NCBI RefSeq assembly: GCF_016653355.1
Contig: NZ_NHSK01000178.1
Location: 1-32,615 of the forward strand
Direction of reading: 5' to 3'
DNA: 32,615 nt
Source: Rhodoplanes elegans
GTDB lineage: Bacteria; Pseudomonadota; Alphaproteobacteria; Rhizobiales; Xanthobacteraceae
Part shown: piece by piece, positions 188 to 6,893 of the stretch
How positions within the stretch are numbered: position 1 is the first letter of the stretch
Layout of the letters: every line of letters starts with the position of its first letter
Translations under genes and position numbers: made by a program
The notes under the pieces: model-generated
Told to the model about the DNA's origin: nothing
The model's input: the letters and a program-made list of their open reading frames with translations, nothing else
Databases searched by the model: none

Positions 188-226
188 CTGATCCGGGTCT
201 GACGCGGCCCGTCAGGCGCCCGTCAG
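188..226. promoter_or_regulatory. Predicted response-regulator operator, copy 1
   Basis: Four half-sites are arranged as CTGAT-N6-CTGAC-N7-GTCAG-N6-GTCAG, at 188-192, 199-203, 211-215 and 222-226. Each arm is a direct repeat with an 11-bp period, one helical turn, which is the usual layout for OmpR/PhoB-type regulators. The two arms face each other. The same arrangement with identical spacings is found at 2732-2770. On the minus-strand side it is followed after 7 bases by GTGCGAC (180-174), as in the second copy. Binding by the regulator at 694-1368 is an inference from proximity and architecture. Confidence 0.65.
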
Positions 227-249
227 GACGACGCGACGAGACTGCCGCG

Positions 250-666
250 ATGACCCTGCCCCGCCGATCCCTCGTCCTCGCCGGCCTCGCCCTTCTCACC
301 GGTGCGTCTCCCGCCCTCGCCCAGCGCGGTGACGGTCCGCCGTGGGGCGGCGGCGGCCCGCCGCCCTGGGCCGGCCGCGGCCGCGGCGAAGGACGCTACG
401 GGGAGGGGCGCGGCGAGGGCCGGCGGCGGCGCCAGCGCGGCGATCACGACTGCGCCCTCAAGGCGCTGTCCGAGGGCCGCGCCAAGCCGCTCTCCGAGCT
501 CCTGCCGGTGATCGAGAAGGAGCTCGGCGGCCAGGCCATCGACGTCGAGCTCGAGCACTGCCACGGTCGCATCGTCTACGAGGTGAAGGCGCTTCGCCCC
601 GACGGCAAGCTGGTCGAGGCGAAGGTCGACGCCCTGACCGGCAAGCCGGTCGCGGACGACGACTGA
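250..666 (+). CDS. Secreted PepSY-domain protein
   Basis: A 138-residue exported protein. Residues 1-24 are a signal peptide with RR at 5-6 and an ALA-Q cleavage site. Residues 26-64 are a low-complexity Gly/Pro/Arg linker, and residues 67-134 match a single PepSY domain (ALKALSEGRAKPLSELLP, then GRIVYEVKAL and DALTGKPV). PepSY proteins are periplasmic or membrane-attached and are often found next to two-component systems and redox proteins, where they may modulate signalling or partner activity. The gene is 27 bases upstream of the response regulator and probably starts the operon PepSY-regulator-kinase. The ATG at 250 was chosen because it gives a proper signal peptide. Its Shine-Dalgarno is weak, and the operator ends only 23 bases upstream, so the 5' leader must be very short. 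Confidence 0.85.
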   Translation: MTLPRRSLVLAGLALLTGASPALAQRGDGPPWGGGGPPPWAGRGRGEGRYGEGRGEGRRRRQRGDHDCALKALSEGRAKPLSELLPVIEKELGGQAIDVELEHCHGRIVYEVKALRPDGKLVEAKVDALTGKPVADDD

Positions 667-693
667 GGACGAGGACCGAAAGGACGACGAGCG

Positions 694-1368
694 ATGCGCA
701 TCCTGGTGGTCGAGGACGAGCCCCGCATCGCCCGCGACATCGCCGCGGCGCTGACCGCCGCCGGCGGCGTCGTCGAGGTGGTCGCCGATGGCGAGGAGGC
801 GTGGTTCAAGGGCGACACCGAGGACTACGCCCTGGTCGTCCTCGATCTCGGCCTGCCGCGGCTCGACGGCCTCGCCGTGCTCAAGCGCTGGCGCGCCAAC
901 CGCCGGCAGACGCCGGTGCTGATCCTCACGGCGCGCGGCACCTGGGCCGAGCGGGTCGAGGGCATCGACGCCGGCGCCGACGACTACCTGCCGAAGCCGT
1001 TCCGCATGGAGGAGCTGGTGGCGCGCGCCCGGGCCCTGATCCGCCGCTCCGCCGGCATCGGCACCGCCGTCATCACGGCCGGCCCGCTCACCGTCGATCC
1101 GCGCGACATGAAGGTGTTTTCCCGCGGCGTCCCGGTGAATCTCTCACCACTCGAGTATCGGCTGGTCGCCTATCTGGCGCTCCACCAGGATCGCGTCGTG
1201 CCGCCGCACGAGCTGATCGACCAGCTCTACGGCACCGACGACGCCCGCGACGCCAACGCGCTCGAGGCGCTGGTGATGCGGTTGCGGCGAAAGCTCGGCG
1301 CCGACGCCATCGAGACGCGGCGCGGCTTCGGCTATCGCATCGGCGAGGGCAAGGAGGCGACCTCGTGA
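694..1368 (+). CDS. OmpR/QseB-family response regulator
   Basis: A 224-residue DNA-binding response regulator. The receiver domain (about 1-115) has the acidic pair E7/D8, the phospho-acceptor D51 in VVLDLGLP, and the Lys of the LPKPF motif. The winged-helix Trans_reg_C domain covers about 125-220, with PLEYRLVAYLALH, an ALEALVMRLRRKL recognition helix and the RRGFGYRI wing. It is of the QseB/PhoP type by length and order. The stop codon overlaps the GTG start of the kinase (GTGA), so the two are translationally coupled cognate partners. Similar regulator-kinase pairs are known beside SHP/DHC/b561 clusters in other proteobacteria. The 11-bp-spaced direct repeats at 188-226 and 2732-2770 are its most likely targets. 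The signal it responds to is not known. Confidence 0.93.
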   Translation: MRILVVEDEPRIARDIAAALTAAGGVVEVVADGEEAWFKGDTEDYALVVLDLGLPRLDGLAVLKRWRANRRQTPVLILTARGTWAERVEGIDAGADDYLPKPFRMEELVARARALIRRSAGIGTAVITAGPLTVDPRDMKVFSRGVPVNLSPLEYRLVAYLALHQDRVVPPHELIDQLYGTDDARDANALEALVMRLRRKLGADAIETRRGFGYRIGEGKEATS

Positions 1369-2735
1369 TCGCCGGCTCGCTCCGGCTCCGCCTGCTGGTC
1401 GCCGGAGCCGTGTCGATCCTGGTCGCGCTCGGGGTCGCCGCCTTCGGCCTGTCGGTGCTGTTCGAGCGCCATGCCGAGCGCGGCATGACCGACGAGCTCG
1501 TCGTGCTGCTCGACCGGCTCGCCGCCGGGATCGACCGCGATGCCGACGGCAAGCTCGCCGTCGCCGATCCGCCCGACGACCCCCGGTTCGAGAAGCCGCT
1601 GTCCGGCCTCTACTGGCAGGTGACGCGCGAGCCCGGCGGCCTCGTCGATCGCTCCCGCTCGCTGTGGGACTTCGAGCTGACGCCGCCGCAGGACGAGCCT
1701 GCGGAAGGCACCGTGCATCGCCACCGAATCGCCGGGCCGGGCGGCACGCAGCTGATGGCGGTCGAGCGCCGCATCGTCCTGCCGGCCCGGCTCGGCGGCG
1801 CCACGGTCCGCCTGGTGGTCGGCCGCGACGCCGCCGACCTCGCCACCGCCCGGGCCGAGTTCACCAGCGAATTGCTGCCGTTCCTGGCGCTGGTCGCGCT
1901 GCTCCTGGTGATCGCCTCGGCCGTGCAGGTGCGGGTCGGCCTCGCGCCCTTAGCCGCCGTGCAGGCGCGCCTCGCCGCGATCCGCTCCGGCCGCACCGAA
2001 CGGCTCGGCATTGCTTTTCCGGACGAGGTGCGGCCGCTCGCCGCCGAGGTCGACGGGCTGCTCGTCCAGCGCGACCGCCAGGTCGAGACGGCGCGGGCGC
2101 GGGCCGCCGACCTCGCCCACGGGCTCAAGACGCCGCTGCAGGTGCTGGCCGGCGACATCGACCGGCTCAAGCAGAAGGGCGAGACGGCGATCGCGGCGGA
2201 TCTCGACCTGGTCGGCGAGACGATGCGGCGCCATGTCGAGCGCGAGCTCGCCCGCGCCCGGCGCACCGCGGTCGCGGCCGATGCGGCAGCCCCGGTCGGC
2301 GCGGTGGCGCAGCGGGTCGTCGACGTCGTCCGCCGCACCCCGACCGGCGATGCGCTCGACTGGGAGGTCACGGTCGATCCGCAGCTCGCCGCCCGCATCG
2401 CGCCCGACGACCTCGCCGAGATCCTCGGCAATCTGCTCGACAACGCCGCCCGCCACGCCCGCGAGCGCGTCGCCATCACGGCGGCAATCGAGGACGGCGA
2501 CGTGGTGCTGCGGGTGATCGACGACGGGCCCGGCATCCCGGCCGCCCTGGTGCCGCAGGCGCTGCGCCGCGGCGGCCGCATCGACTCCGGCCCCGGCACC
2601 GGGCTGGGCCTCGCCATCGCCAGCGACATCGCCGACGCCTGGAACGGGACGCTGCGGCTCGGCCCGACCGAGCCCGGCCGCATGACCGCGGCCGTCCGTC
2701 TGCCGCGGGCGGCGCCCCTGCAGGACGGCCGCTGA
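1365..2735 (+). CDS. Membrane sensor histidine kinase
   Basis: A 456-residue inner-membrane kinase starting at a GTG that overlaps the regulator's stop codon. The first membrane helix is at about 10-33 and the second at about 171-188, so residues 34-170 form a periplasmic sensor region. A HAMP-like linker follows. The dimerisation/phospho-acceptor motif DLAHGLKTPL carries H252. The ATPase domain has the N-box NLLDNAARHA (N360), the G1 box DDGPGIP (387-392) and the G2 box GTGLGLAI. Its architecture is QseC/PhoQ-like, which fits the upstream QseB-like regulator. The stop codon lies inside the second predicted operator. The periplasmic domain shows no recognised ligand-binding fold. Confidence 0.93.
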   Translation: MIAGSLRLRLLVAGAVSILVALGVAAFGLSVLFERHAERGMTDELVVLLDRLAAGIDRDADGKLAVADPPDDPRFEKPLSGLYWQVTREPGGLVDRSRSLWDFELTPPQDEPAEGTVHRHRIAGPGGTQLMAVERRIVLPARLGGATVRLVVGRDAADLATARAEFTSELLPFLALVALLLVIASAVQVRVGLAPLAAVQARLAAIRSGRTERLGIAFPDEVRPLAAEVDGLLVQRDRQVETARARAADLAHGLKTPLQVLAGDIDRLKQKGETAIAADLDLVGETMRRHVERELARARRTAVAADAAAPVGAVAQRVVDVVRRTPTGDALDWEVTVDPQLAARIAPDDLAEILGNLLDNAARHARERVAITAAIEDGDVVLRVIDDGPGIPAALVPQALRRGGRIDSGPGTGLGLAIASDIADAWNGTLRLGPTEPGRMTAAVRLPRAAPLQDGR

Positions 2736-2770
2736 CGGGAGCCTGACGGCGCGGGTCAGAAGCGCGTCAG
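2732..2770. promoter_or_regulatory. Predicted response-regulator operator, copy 2 (b561-SHP-DHC promoter)
   Basis: Half-sites are CTGAC 2732-2736, CTGAC 2743-2747, GTCAG 2755-2759 and GTCAG 2766-2770, giving spacers of 6, 7 and 6 bases exactly as at 188-226. The kinase stop codon TGA (2733-2735) lies in the first half-site. Seven bases downstream is GTGCGAC (2778-2784), at the same distance as on the Gly-rich-gene side of copy 1. The site ends 54 bases before the cytochrome b561 ATG, a sensible activator position. I could not define a convincing -10 box. Confidence 0.68.
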
Positions 2771-2824
2771 CCGGCGCGTGCGACAAGGCTGCATTGTTCC
2801 TGAAGCAGATCGGGATTCCGCATC

Positions 2825-3403
2825 ATGACCACGTCCATCGCCACGCCGCCCATCGCCACCGACAGATTTCGTTACGACACCTTCACCCAGGCCCTCCACT
2901 GGCTGACCCTGATCGCCGTCGCCGGCGCGTTCGTCAGTGGCCAGCTGATGGACGACATGCCGCGCGGCGCCGCCAAGGCGCAGCTCATCTCCACCCACAT
3001 CTCGGTCGGCCTCCTGGTGCTGACCTTCACGGTGCTGCGCCTCGCGCGGCGCATCGCCGTGCCGCAGCCGGACCCGATCCCCGGCGCGCCGCTCGTCCAG
3101 ATGGCCGCCAAGGCCATGCATCTGACGCTGTACCTCCTCTTGGTCATCGTGCCGATCGCCGGCATGGCGATGGTGTGGGCGAAGGGCCGCACGGTCGGCT
3201 TCTTCGGCCTGTTCACGCTGCCGCCGCTGATCGGGCCGGACCGCGACCTCGCGCACCGGCTCGGCGAGATGCACGAGATCGGCGCCAACCTGATCCTCGT
3301 CCTGGCCGGCGTGCACGCGGCGGCCGCCATCGTCCACCACACGATGCTGAAGGACGGCGCCATCGCCCGCATGCTGCCGTTCGGCACGTCGCGCCACGGC
3401 TGA
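2825..3403 (+). CDS. Cytochrome b561 (YceJ-type membrane b-type cytochrome)
   Basis: A 192-residue integral membrane protein with four predicted helices (about 22-41, 55-75, 97-118 and 148-172). It belongs to the prokaryotic cytochrome b561 family, which takes electrons from the quinol pool and passes them to periplasmic acceptors. Candidate heme ligands are H25 (ALHWL), H58 (STHISVG), H150 (EMHEIGANL) and H164, with further His at 99 and 144. It is the first gene of a probable operon with SHP (37 bases downstream) and DHC. That trio is known from Rhodobacter sphaeroides and other bacteria, where b561 is thought to be the membrane electron entry point. It lies directly behind the predicted operator at 2732-2770. 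Confidence 0.9.
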   Translation: MTTSIATPPIATDRFRYDTFTQALHWLTLIAVAGAFVSGQLMDDMPRGAAKAQLISTHISVGLLVLTFTVLRLARRIAVPQPDPIPGAPLVQMAAKAMHLTLYLLLVIVPIAGMAMVWAKGRTVGFFGLFTLPPLIGPDRDLAHRLGEMHEIGANLILVLAGVHAAAAIVHHTMLKDGAIARMLPFGTSRHG

Positions 3404-3440: not shown

Positions 3441-3911
3441 ATGACCGGACTCCCGTCCGGCCGGCGCACCGCGCCGGCCGCCCGCCGCCTCGTCCCCGCG
3501 CTTCAGGTGACCGCGGCCCTGCTGCTCGCCTGTGTCGCCGCGCCGGGCCTCGCCCAGCCGGGCGCCGCCCAGCGCGCCGTGCTCGACCGCACGATCGCCG
3601 AGGCCCGCACGGCCGATGCCGGCTTCGGGGCGTCGGCGGAGCGCGGCCGCGCCCTGTTCATGAGCAGCCCGGCCGCCGGCAAGCCCGACACGCCGTCCTG
3701 CACGTCGTGCCACACGACGAATCTCGCCCGCGCCGGCCAAGCGCGCGCCGGCAAGACGATCGAGCCGCTCGCCCCCTCGGTCGTGCCGACCCGCCTGTCG
3801 GATCCGGCCACCGTGGACAAGTGGCTCCGCCGGAACTGCCCCGACGTGCTCGGCCGCGAGTGCTCGGCCGCCGAGCGGGCGGATCTCGTCGCCTTCCTGA
3901 TCGGCCAGTGA
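3441..3911 (+). CDS. shp: SHP-type oxygen-binding c-type cytochrome (DUF1924)
   Basis: A 156-residue periplasmic monoheme cytochrome c. A signal peptide ends near AQPGAAQ (about residue 38). The heme motif is CTSCH (C87, C90, H91). The C-terminal segment WLRRNC...GREC closely matches sphaeroides heme protein: N132 corresponds to the distal Asn ligand that is displaced when O2 or NO binds, and C133/C141 can form the conserved disulfide. RTGK/PLAPS-like residues (AGKTIEPLAPS, 103-113) are also typical. SHP is reported to bind oxygen and NO and to accept electrons from the diheme cytochrome DHC, which is encoded next here. A role in NO or O2 reduction is known for the family but has not been tested for this protein. 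The Shine-Dalgarno AGGAGA lies before the ATG. Confidence 0.93.
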   Translation: MTGLPSGRRTAPAARRLVPALQVTAALLLACVAAPGLAQPGAAQRAVLDRTIAEARTADAGFGASAERGRALFMSSPAAGKPDTPSCTSCHTTNLARAGQARAGKTIEPLAPSVVPTRLSDPATVDKWLRRNCPDVLGRECSAAERADLVAFLIGQ

Positions 3912-3937: not shown

Positions 3938-4040
3938 GTCATTCCGGGGCGCGCCGAAGGCGCGAACCCGGAATCCAACGGCTGACTCCACGCGCTCGGC
4001 TGGATTCCGGGTTCGGCGCTGTGCGCCGCCCCGGAATGAC
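3938..4040. repeat. GC-rich palindromic element, family A, copy 1 (short form)
   Basis: The outer inverted repeat GTCATTCCGGGGCG (3938-3951) pairs perfectly with 4027-4040. An inner one, GAACCCGGAATCCA (3964-3977), pairs perfectly with 4001-4014. The element fills most of the gap between SHP and DHC. In a shared transcript it would fold into a long hairpin between the two cytochrome genes. Related copies are at 12463-12581, 28407-28530 and 31477-31594. This copy lacks the conserved centre of the others. Confidence 0.88.
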
Positions 4041-4082
4041 TGCCCCGAGCCGATCAGCCGAATCACGCATGAGAGGACGATG

Positions 4083-4589
4083 ATGTCGGACAAATGGATG
4101 TGGATCCTGCGCCCGTTGGTGCTGGTCGGTGCCCCCGCCGTGGTGCTCGTCACGCTCGCGAGCCCGCTGGTCGCCGACGGGCTGCGGCTGGACCCGGTGC
4201 GCGACCCGGTCGTGAAGGCGGAATGCGGCGCCTGCCATCTGGTCTATCCGGCCGGGCTACTGCCGGCGCGCTCGTGGCGGGCCATGACGGCGAACCTATC
4301 AAATCACTTCGGTGACAACGCCGCGCTCGACCAGGCGACCACCGACCGCATCGCCGCCTATCTCGCCGCCAACGCGGCCGACGCCGCCGGGCGCAACAGC
4401 AAGATGATGCGCAAGCTCTCGCCCGAGGTGACGCCGGCCCGCATCACCGAGCTGCCGTGGTGGACCCGCAAGCACGAGCGCAAGGACCGGGTCGCGCCGG
4501 CGACGCTCGCCCGCAAGGGCGCCAAGTTCCGCGGCGACTGCAAGGCCTGCCACGAGGACGCCGAGCAGGGCTGGTTCGACGAGGAGTGA
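4083..4589 (+). CDS. dhc: Diheme cytochrome c (DHC family)
   Basis: A 168-residue diheme cytochrome c. It has an N-terminal hydrophobic helix (about 8-30) that acts as a signal or anchor. Heme motifs are CGACH (C48, C51, H52) and CKACH (C153, C156, H157). H75 in NHFGDNA and H131 are likely distal ligands. ECGACH, LLPARSW and HFGDNA are hallmark blocks of the DHC family, the electron donor to SHP. It follows SHP after 171 bases that hold a palindromic element. The ATG at 4083 is six bases from the Shine-Dalgarno AGAGG and was preferred over the adjacent in-frame ATG at 4080, which is only three bases away. With b561 and SHP it completes the expected three-component chain. Confidence 0.92.
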   Translation: MSDKWMWILRPLVLVGAPAVVLVTLASPLVADGLRLDPVRDPVVKAECGACHLVYPAGLLPARSWRAMTANLSNHFGDNAALDQATTDRIAAYLAANAADAAGRNSKMMRKLSPEVTPARITELPWWTRKHERKDRVAPATLARKGAKFRGDCKACHEDAEQGWFDEE

Positions 4590-4943: not shown

Positions 4944-6893
4944 ATGCCGATCGATCGTCGTGCCTTCCTCGCGTATGGGGCCGGGACCTCGCTCGGCCTG
5001 TTCGTCCAGGATCCTTTCGGCCGATCGCGTGCGATCGCCGGGCCGGTGATGGGCGGCAGCCTGCGGGTCGACCGGGTCGAGCGGTTCGCCATGCCGCTCG
5101 CCGTGCCGAAGGCGATGCCGCGCTCCGGCCCGAACACCTACCGGATCGCGGCGCGCCAGCAGCGCCAGCAGATGCTGCCGCCGCCCTTCGGCCGGACGAC
5201 TCTCTGGTGCTACGGCGCCGAGGGCCACGACGACAGCTTCGCCTCGCCGGCCGCGACCATCGAGGCGACGCGCGGCACGCCGATCGAGATCACCTGGATC
5301 AACGACCTGATGACGGCGGAGCGGCGCTTCCGGCCGCATCTCCTGCCGGTCGACCCGACGCTGCACTGGGCCAATCCGGGCGGCCGCCGCGACACCCGCC
5401 CGACCTTCACGGCGACGCCGGGGCCGTACCGCGGACCGGTGCCGCTGGTCACCCACGTGCACGGCATGGAGGCCGTGGAGGATTGGAGCGACGGCTATCC
5501 GGAGGCGTGGGTGCTGCCCGACGCCGTCGACCTGCCCGAGGGCTTCGCGCCGGTCGGCACCTGGTACGACTTCTTCTGGGCGAAGTCGGGCCGCAGCGAC
5601 TGGGGGGCGGGCCGCGTCACCTACCGCTATCCCAACAGCCAGCGCCCCGGGATGCTCTGGTATCACGACCACACCCTGGGCCTGACCCGGCTCAACGTCT
5701 ATGCCGGCCTCGCCGGCCTCTATCTGATCCGCAGCGACGACCCGGCCGACCATCCGCGCGTCGCCGGGGACGGTACGACCGCGGTGCTGCCGGCAGGCGC
5801 GCTCGAGATCCCGCTCGCCATCACCGACCGCTCGTTCAACGCCGACGGCTCGCTCTACTACCCGGACAGCCGGCGGCTGTTCGACGGCTATGCCGGGCCG
5901 TTCATCCCGGCCTCCGACGTCGCTCCGATCTGGGTGCCGGAGTTCCTCGGCAACGTGATGGTGGTCAATGGCCGCGCCTGGCCGCGCTGCGAGGTGGAGC
6001 CGCGGCGCTATCGCCTGCGCGTCCTCAACGCCTGCAACGCGCGGGTCCTGATCCTGCGCTTCGCCGACCCCAAGGTGGAGGTCTGGCAGATCGGTACCGA
6101 GGGCGGTTTCCTGCGCGCGCCCGTGAAGCTGCGCGACGTGCTCCTGGCGCCGGCCGAGCGCGCCGATCTGATCGTCGACTTCTCGCGCCTCGCGCCGGGC
6201 AGCCGCGTCACGCTGCGCAATCTCGGGCCGGATGCGCCCTACAAGGGCGAGCCCGACGAGGATCCGGCCGAGCGCCGCAGCACCGGTCAGGTGATGCAGT
6301 TCCGCGTCGTTCCGGCGACCGGCCCGGACAACACCACGCCGCCGGCCCGCCTCGCCCTGCCGCCGATCGCGGCGCTGCCCGAGCCGGTGCGCGAGCGGGC
6401 GCTGGCGCTGGTCGAGCAGATGGCGCCGTCGCGCAAGGGCGAGGTGCCGCACGAGGCGGCGCTCGCCACCTTCGATCCCGGGCTCGGCCGCGACCGCGGC
6501 GTCACGCTGCGCCACTGGGCCGACCCGGTGACCGAGAACCCGGCGCCGGGCGACACCGAGGTCTGGGCGTTCCACAATCTCACCGGCGACGCGCATCCGA
6601 TGCACGTCCACGACGTCCTGTTCCAGGTGGTCGACCGCCGCGCCCTCGACGACGAGACCGGCCGGCCCGAGGGTCCGGCGCGGCCGCCGCGACCCGAGGA
6701 GGACGGCTGGAAGGACACCGTGATCGCCCGGCCCGGCGAGGTGACGCGGGTGCGGATGCGGTTCGCGAAGGCCGGCCAGTTCGTCTGGCACTGCCACATG
6801 GTCGAGCACGAGGACAACGAGATGATGCGGCCGTTCCGGGTCGGCCCCGAGCAGCCCGGCGAGCCGCAGGACCACGGCGCCCCGAAGACCTGA
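4944..6893 (+). CDS. Tat-type multicopper oxidase (CotA/bilirubin-oxidase-like)
   Basis: A 649-residue exported multicopper oxidase. The N-terminus has DRRAFL (R5-R6) followed by a hydrophobic stretch, which suggests Tat export with copper loading in the cytoplasm. All four copper motifs are present: THVHG (H171, H173), WYHDH (H241, H243), HPMHVH (H551, H554, H556) and HCHMVEHEDNEM (H616, C617, H618, H622, axial M627). The last motif and the long spacing before it resemble the CotA/phenoxazinone-synthase branch. Such enzymes oxidise phenols, bilirubin or metal ions and reduce O2 to water. The true substrate cannot be read here, and no Met-rich copper-resistance segment is obvious. The ATG at 4944 has the Shine-Dalgarno CCGGAG six bases upstream. 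An overlapping out-of-frame ATG lies at 4939. Confidence 0.92.
   Translation: MPIDRRAFLAYGAGTSLGLFVQDPFGRSRAIAGPVMGGSLRVDRVERFAMPLAVPKAMPRSGPNTYRIAARQQRQQMLPPPFGRTTLWCYGAEGHDDSFASPAATIEATRGTPIEITWINDLMTAERRFRPHLLPVDPTLHWANPGGRRDTRPTFTATPGPYRGPVPLVTHVHGMEAVEDWSDGYPEAWVLPDAVDLPEGFAPVGTWYDFFWAKSGRSDWGAGRVTYRYPNSQRPGMLWYHDHTLGLTRLNVYAGLAGLYLIRSDDPADHPRVAGDGTTAVLPAGALEIPLAITDRSFNADGSLYYPDSRRLFDGYAGPFIPASDVAPIWVPEFLGNVMVVNGRAWPRCEVEPRRYRLRVLNACNARVLILRFADPKVEVWQIGTEGGFLRAPVKLRDVLLAPAERADLIVDFSRLAPGSRVTLRNLGPDAPYKGEPDEDPAERRSTGQVMQFRVVPATGPDNTTPPARLALPPIAALPEPVRERALALVEQMAPSRKGEVPHEAALATFDPGLGRDRGVTLRHWADPVTENPAPGDTEVWAFHNLTGDAHPMHVHDVLFQVVDRRALDDETGRPEGPARPPRPEEDGWKDTVIARPGEVTRVRMRFAKAGQFVWHCHMVEHEDNEMMRPFRVGPEQPGEPQDHGAPKT

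Follow-up and report, generated by a model that had tools for sequence, protein, structure and literature searches.

Two copies of one 39 bp pattern flank a PepSY–response regulator–kinase operon in the 32,615-nucleotide stretch of DNA analysed here (the window), which raises the question of which protein reads them and why each copy carries two arms that face one another. The initial annotation had placed CTGAY-N6-CTGAC-N7-GTCAG-N6-GTCAG, with identical spacers, at 188–226 (site A) and 2732–2770 (site B). A scan of the window reproduced both sites exactly, with no match to the pattern in 100 shuffles of the window. Each arm is a direct repeat with an 11 bp period, which fits the 10–11 bp operator period of the OmpR/PhoB family and agrees with the description of the arms as OmpR-type repeats, whose geometry is conserved in relatives. 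A looser 16-base form, CTGA-N7-CTGA-N9-TCAG-N7-TCAG (half-site spacing 7-9-7), was present in the whole genome (6,538,588 bases in 320 contigs) only at sites A and B, and its reversed control gave no match in the same sequence. The features around the sites are listed in Table 1.

Table 1. Sites, predicted promoter elements and genes at the start of the window
Feature	Position	Strand	Basis
Gly/Gln-rich ORF start, signal-peptide-like N-terminus, cut by contig end	1–123	−	sequence
Predicted mirror −10 GACGCT, divergent promoter	171–176	−	A13 in distal flanks
Site A, four half-sites	arm 1 188–203, arm 2 211–226		pattern; geometry kept in relatives
Predicted −10 GAGACT, PepSY–regulator–kinase promoter	238–243	+	A at +13 from site A
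Exported PepSY protein (Orf1-like)	250–666	+	PF03413, 1.3e-6
OmpR-family response regulator, proposed site reader	694–1368	+	PF00072 5e-26, PF00486 7.8e-18
Histidine kinase, SK1 type	1365–2735	+	motifs SGLYWQ and RSRSLWD
Site B, four half-sites	arm 1 2732–2747, arm 2 2755–2770		pattern scan
Predicted weak −10 GACAAG towards b561	2782–2787	+	site B flank
Cytochrome b561	2825–3403	+	PF01292
SHP-like cytochrome (DUF1924)	3441–3911	+	PF09086
Dihaem cytochrome c (DHC)	4080–4589	+	PF09626

Site A sits between two divergent starts, the PepSY ATG at 250 and that of the Gly/Gln-rich ORF at 123. The ORF is preceded by an AGGAGG ribosome-binding site (129–134), and its 41 residues had no Pfam match. Site B starts at the kinase stop codon, so that the TGA at 2733–2735 lies inside its first half-site. 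The regulator encoded between the sites combines a receiver domain with a Trans_reg_C winged helix, which places it in the OmpR/PhoB family. Downstream, the gap between the SHP and DHC genes holds a long inverted repeat (window 3938–4040; CATTCCGGGG...GGATTCC / GGATTCCGGG...CCCCGGAATG), and the DHC gene is adjoined by a multicopper oxidase gene (window 4944–6893; Cu-oxidase_2 and Cu-oxidase_3).

Exact matches to the 16-base form were detected in 49 of 397 genomes sampled from the order and in 12 of 385 sampled from the class (own genome included), with none for the reversed control in either set; the genomes within these samples are related to one another. Together with the two genome sites against a control of zero, this bears out the expectation that the pattern exceeds chance frequency. 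Most of the 49 genomes contained one exact site only. Among 54 loci examined around exact sites in other genomes of the order sample (L033–L086), 27 had a regulator homologue and a kinase homologue no more than 3 kb away, and among 12 class-sample loci (11 other genomes) a regulator match was found in 11, the twelfth having SHP and DHC.

Choice of loci by the motif itself was avoided by taking matches to the kinase in the 397 order-sample genomes as the starting point. Matches with E ≤ 1e-60 were present in 141 of these, and loci were drawn from the first 95, which reach to 2e-79; 94 were used, including the window and with two per genome possible; the match left out (G014:C23) itself has an exact site (L066). 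Six loci were added by hand after their sites were known, giving a total of 100, and the regulator was in place in 98. The best upstream match to the 7-9-7 form was exact in 25 of 98, with ≤1 of 16 mismatches in 40, ≤2 in 62 and ≤3 in 75; without the six added loci the numbers were 23, 36, 57 and 69 of 92. When 153 spacer combinations were compared at ≤2 mismatches, 7-9-7 accounted for 62 of 98 loci and the runner-up, 10-6-7, for 21, with a mean of 0.5 for the other combinations and none in five shuffling rounds. The arm facing PepSY was the better conserved and the spacing between the arms was fixed. No site with ≤3 mismatches was found in 23 of the 98 loci, some of which had regulators of 65–70 % identity. 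When the regions preceding regulators that lack a CTGA site were scanned for repeats of any sequence with 7-9-7 spacing, most scores were at chance level. A chance origin of the sites is ruled out by the window shuffles and by the genome, order-sample and geometry controls. Sites A and B are real and are very probably where the neighbouring response regulator binds. The proposal that they define its regulon gains support from comparative sequence, and single-arm sites may belong to it too.

A second half-site sequence was seen in the same geometry. Sixteen of the 58 distinct exact sites were of a CTGAAC type (L036, L041, L044, L045, L046, L051, L053, L055, L063, L064, L067, L077, L080, L082, L083 and L084), with an A at flank position 13 (A13, described below) on at most one side. 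Within the order these sites mostly face other genes, several of them for small exported basic or His/Gly-rich proteins, and they are probably the operator of another regulator. Outside the order, CTGAAC-type sites occur at PepSY–regulator–kinase operons (L098:5610, L303, L305 and L309) whose regulators are 53–57 % identical to that of the window; a single half-site common to all relatives was therefore rejected. Regulators next to CTGAC sites (66) and those next to CTGAAC sites (4) differ at residues 189, 209 and 212 of the window regulator (A to T, R to L/E/V and F to Q/L), a comparison confounded by kinship and kept out of the evidence because the CTGAAC regulators are only four and related. 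In Stenotrophomonas sp. SY1 (L108) a comparable repeat of four CTAAC-like half-sites precedes the regulator by about 367 bp; its score was equalled in 1 of 40 shuffles, with about 50 regions tested.

The flanks of the 75 operon-first sites with ≤3 mismatches were aligned to examine what lies outside the arms. On the PepSY (proximal) side, position 13 was A in 70 of 75 and position 17 was T in 42, and on the distal side, read outward, the same positions were A in 73 of 74 and T in 46. This pattern suggests that each arm is followed outward, at constant spacing, by a −10-like element. The elements are weak and no −35 hexamer stands out in the aligned flanks. The first ATG was located at +24 or +25 from the site in 46 of the 75 loci, and at +24 in the window; since this is the expected transcription start, the PepSY message is probably leaderless. 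A13 as a part of the binding sequence is disfavoured, because it was absent distally in all nine loci without a distal arm and was present on only two of seven away-facing sides of the one-way SHP sites described below.

The relationship between arms and flanks indicates why the operator is double. The proximal arm had ≤1 of 8 mismatches in 85 of 97 scorable operon-first loci. Where the distal arm was kept (≤2 of 8 mismatches, n=68), distal A13 was present in 68 of 68 and proximal A13 in 65; with 3–4 mismatches (n=8) distal A13 was present in seven, and where the arm was lost (≥5 mismatches, n=9) in none. The separation persisted without the six hand-added loci (63 of 63 against 0 of 9) and when regulators were clustered at 80 % identity (39 of 39 clusters against 0 of 6). 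A divergent homologue of PepSY_2 was detected in 55 of 68, five of eight and one of nine loci, respectively, counts that score presence only and include some matches to a locus's own protein, as the queries came from loci of the present study and in part from the same genomes. No homologue was found in 13 of the 68 loci with a distal arm, where the partner gene either differs or escaped detection. Seven of the nine loci without a distal arm retained a proximal arm with A13, so that one arm seems to be enough; the other two (L223 and L225) also lacked proximal A13 and may not be real sites. The locus of the regulator most similar to that of the window (G313, 85 % identity) had a single arm, a −10 and an ATG at +24. 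Upstream of L226, where the distal arm is absent, there are several extra tandem half-sites, suggestive of a rebuilt site. Because a separate −10-like element accompanies either arm, and given both the joint loss of distal arm and distal A13 and the single-arm loci, the most suitable interpretation of the site preceding the operon is a putative bidirectional promoter made of two class-II activator sites placed back to back. The head-to-head double site of the initial annotation is real, and what that annotation missed is why the arms face each other.

Conservation at SHP genes was partial. SHP was present in 22 of the 397 order-sample genomes, and a site with ≤3 mismatches was identified at the SHP locus in ten (window, G189, G016 with three mismatches, G059, G313, G086, G337, G062, G211 and G166); none was found in the other 12, two of which (G014 and G046) are near contig ends. 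The predicted conservation therefore held upstream of orthologous regulator operons and at under half of the SHP genomes. In G059, G337 and G062 a single site lies between the regulator operon and the SHP operon, with A13 on both sides. The seven other SHP sites are one-way, with A13 on the gene-facing side in all seven and on the away-facing side in two (G016 and window site B). All seven retain both arms though one −10 would require only one, a feature that a bidirectional promoter leaves unexplained and that may reflect cooperative binding or recent copying of a double site. This retention, with −10 A so rarely on the away-facing side, and the fixed spacing between arms are what would be expected if the four half-sites formed one cooperative unit, in which case all targets would require a head-to-head tetramer and the second −10 would be a by-product or later gain. 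Such a tetramer is rather unlikely in our judgement: it fits poorly with the nine operon-first loci lacking a distal arm, seven of which keep the proximal arm and A13, and with the joint disappearance of distal arm and distal −10, and the SHP search pattern itself required both arms and so favoured double sites.

Class-II activation from each arm is the reading we regard as likely, with both sites serving as operators for the intervening OmpR-family regulator. A head-to-tail regulator dimer would bind the two half-sites of an arm, with their 11 bp period, and in response to a presumed signal would occupy about −39 to −24, overlapping the −35 region, and recruit RNA polymerase to the weak −10 element 11 bp further out. 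Two such units, back to back at fixed spacing, would form the bidirectional promoter at the operon start. One side of site A would drive the probably leaderless PepSY–regulator–kinase operon and the other side the divergent exported-protein gene, which in relatives is often a second PepSY protein; site B, at the kinase stop codon, would drive b561–SHP–DHC. Together these targets would make up an envelope redox regulon under positive autoregulation.

A role in repression, or in a DNA loop joining sites A and B, is improbable. The predicted overlap of the arms with the −35 region and the presence of two window sites about 2.5 kb apart would fit such a role. However, weak −10 elements without a prominent −35 hexamer suit activation, the similar dbfQRS operon is positively autoregulated via its phosphorylated regulator (PMC12714742, available text), and most of the matching genomes have a single exact site. 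The least probable alternative is that another OmpR-family regulator reads the sites alone or additionally, for example CenR of Rhodobacter sphaeroides, an envelope and division gene regulator whose motif TGA-N8-TGA is identical to the direct-repeat core of each arm (CTGA-N7-CTGA) and which may therefore cross-bind, but in the available text of PMC9275681 its motif is a single direct repeat that at activated genes lies upstream of −35, whereas the proximal arm here would overlap −35, and the homologues of the neighbouring regulator recur beside the sites in the order and class loci counted above.

Targets with one arm may extend the regulon. The single arm CTGAY-N6-CTGAC occurs at 16 places in the genome, four of them the arms of sites A and B, against five for the reversed control. 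A is present at +13 in five of the other 12 (L320:1963, L318:867, L316:1987, L317:2039 and L321:1987). Three of these precede genes for a PepSY_TM protein (PF03929), an exported CxxCH-motif protein and a protein resembling an RND adaptor, and two precede near-identical exported proteins with no Pfam match. Because two or three of 12 would be expected by chance (14–24 % A in neighbouring columns), membership of single-arm sites in the regulon is a hint only.

If the class-II reading is correct, the sensor operon and its envelope partner would be switched on together, and the four-site operator would be reused for one-way redox targets. It would allow genomes to be searched for the PepSY-linked two-component system of many alphaproteobacteria by a DNA signature that includes promoter geometry, would tie that system to the SHP, dihaem cytochrome and cytochrome b561 genes, and would make the role of SHP approachable via its regulon. 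The relatives offer a natural test of one operator driving divergent transcription, in which arm, −10 and partner gene are lost. It is possible, though we put it at somewhat below even chances, that bidirectional promoters of this type form a widespread class, with a head-to-head pair of OmpR-family dimers recruiting two polymerases back to back, one direction leaderless and the same operator reused one-way.

Several known systems share parts of this arrangement. In class-II activation of the PhoB/PmrA type, an 11 bp direct repeat replaces the −35 element about 10–11 bp from the −10 and acts one-way; we know of no fixed head-to-head partner arm at such sites. CusR/CopR-type boxes, read by an OmpR-family regulator between divergent genes, are palindromic with inverted TGAC/GTCA and contain two half-sites, compared with four here. 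Naming of the window regulator by NCBIfam was rejected, as none of the 25 families listed (of 95) scored above its cut-off: 152.9 bits for TIGR01387 (CusR/CzcR/CopR heavy-metal regulators; cut-off 279.2) and 194.1 bits for PmrA NF007928 (cut-off 330). A literature search among open PMC papers found no description of this operator. The DbfQRS system of Vibrio cholerae is similar in gene make-up, a single operon encoding a small periplasmic PepSY protein, a regulator and a kinase, as here; it differs in species and in its biofilm/envelope output, and the available text gives no DNA motif (PMC12714742). A further counterpart is the Orf1/RR/SK1 system of Meyer et al. 2010 (PMC2909971), in which, according to the available text, the SK1 kinase, with motifs SGVYWQ and RSRSLWD (and variants), is tied to SHP operons with accessory Orf1; for two Rhodospirillaceae the authors raised the possibility of divergent transcription from a shared promoter region. 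The available text of that paper contains no operator sequence, and we propose here the operator together with its geometry and −10 elements. Shared with it are the kinase motifs and an accessory gene, regulator and kinase beside cytochrome b, SHP and DHC; the window has SGLYWQ and RSRSLWD and this gene set, its accessory protein being periplasmic, which places it within the SK1/Orf1 group, and we infer that Orf1 of Meyer et al. is a PepSY protein.
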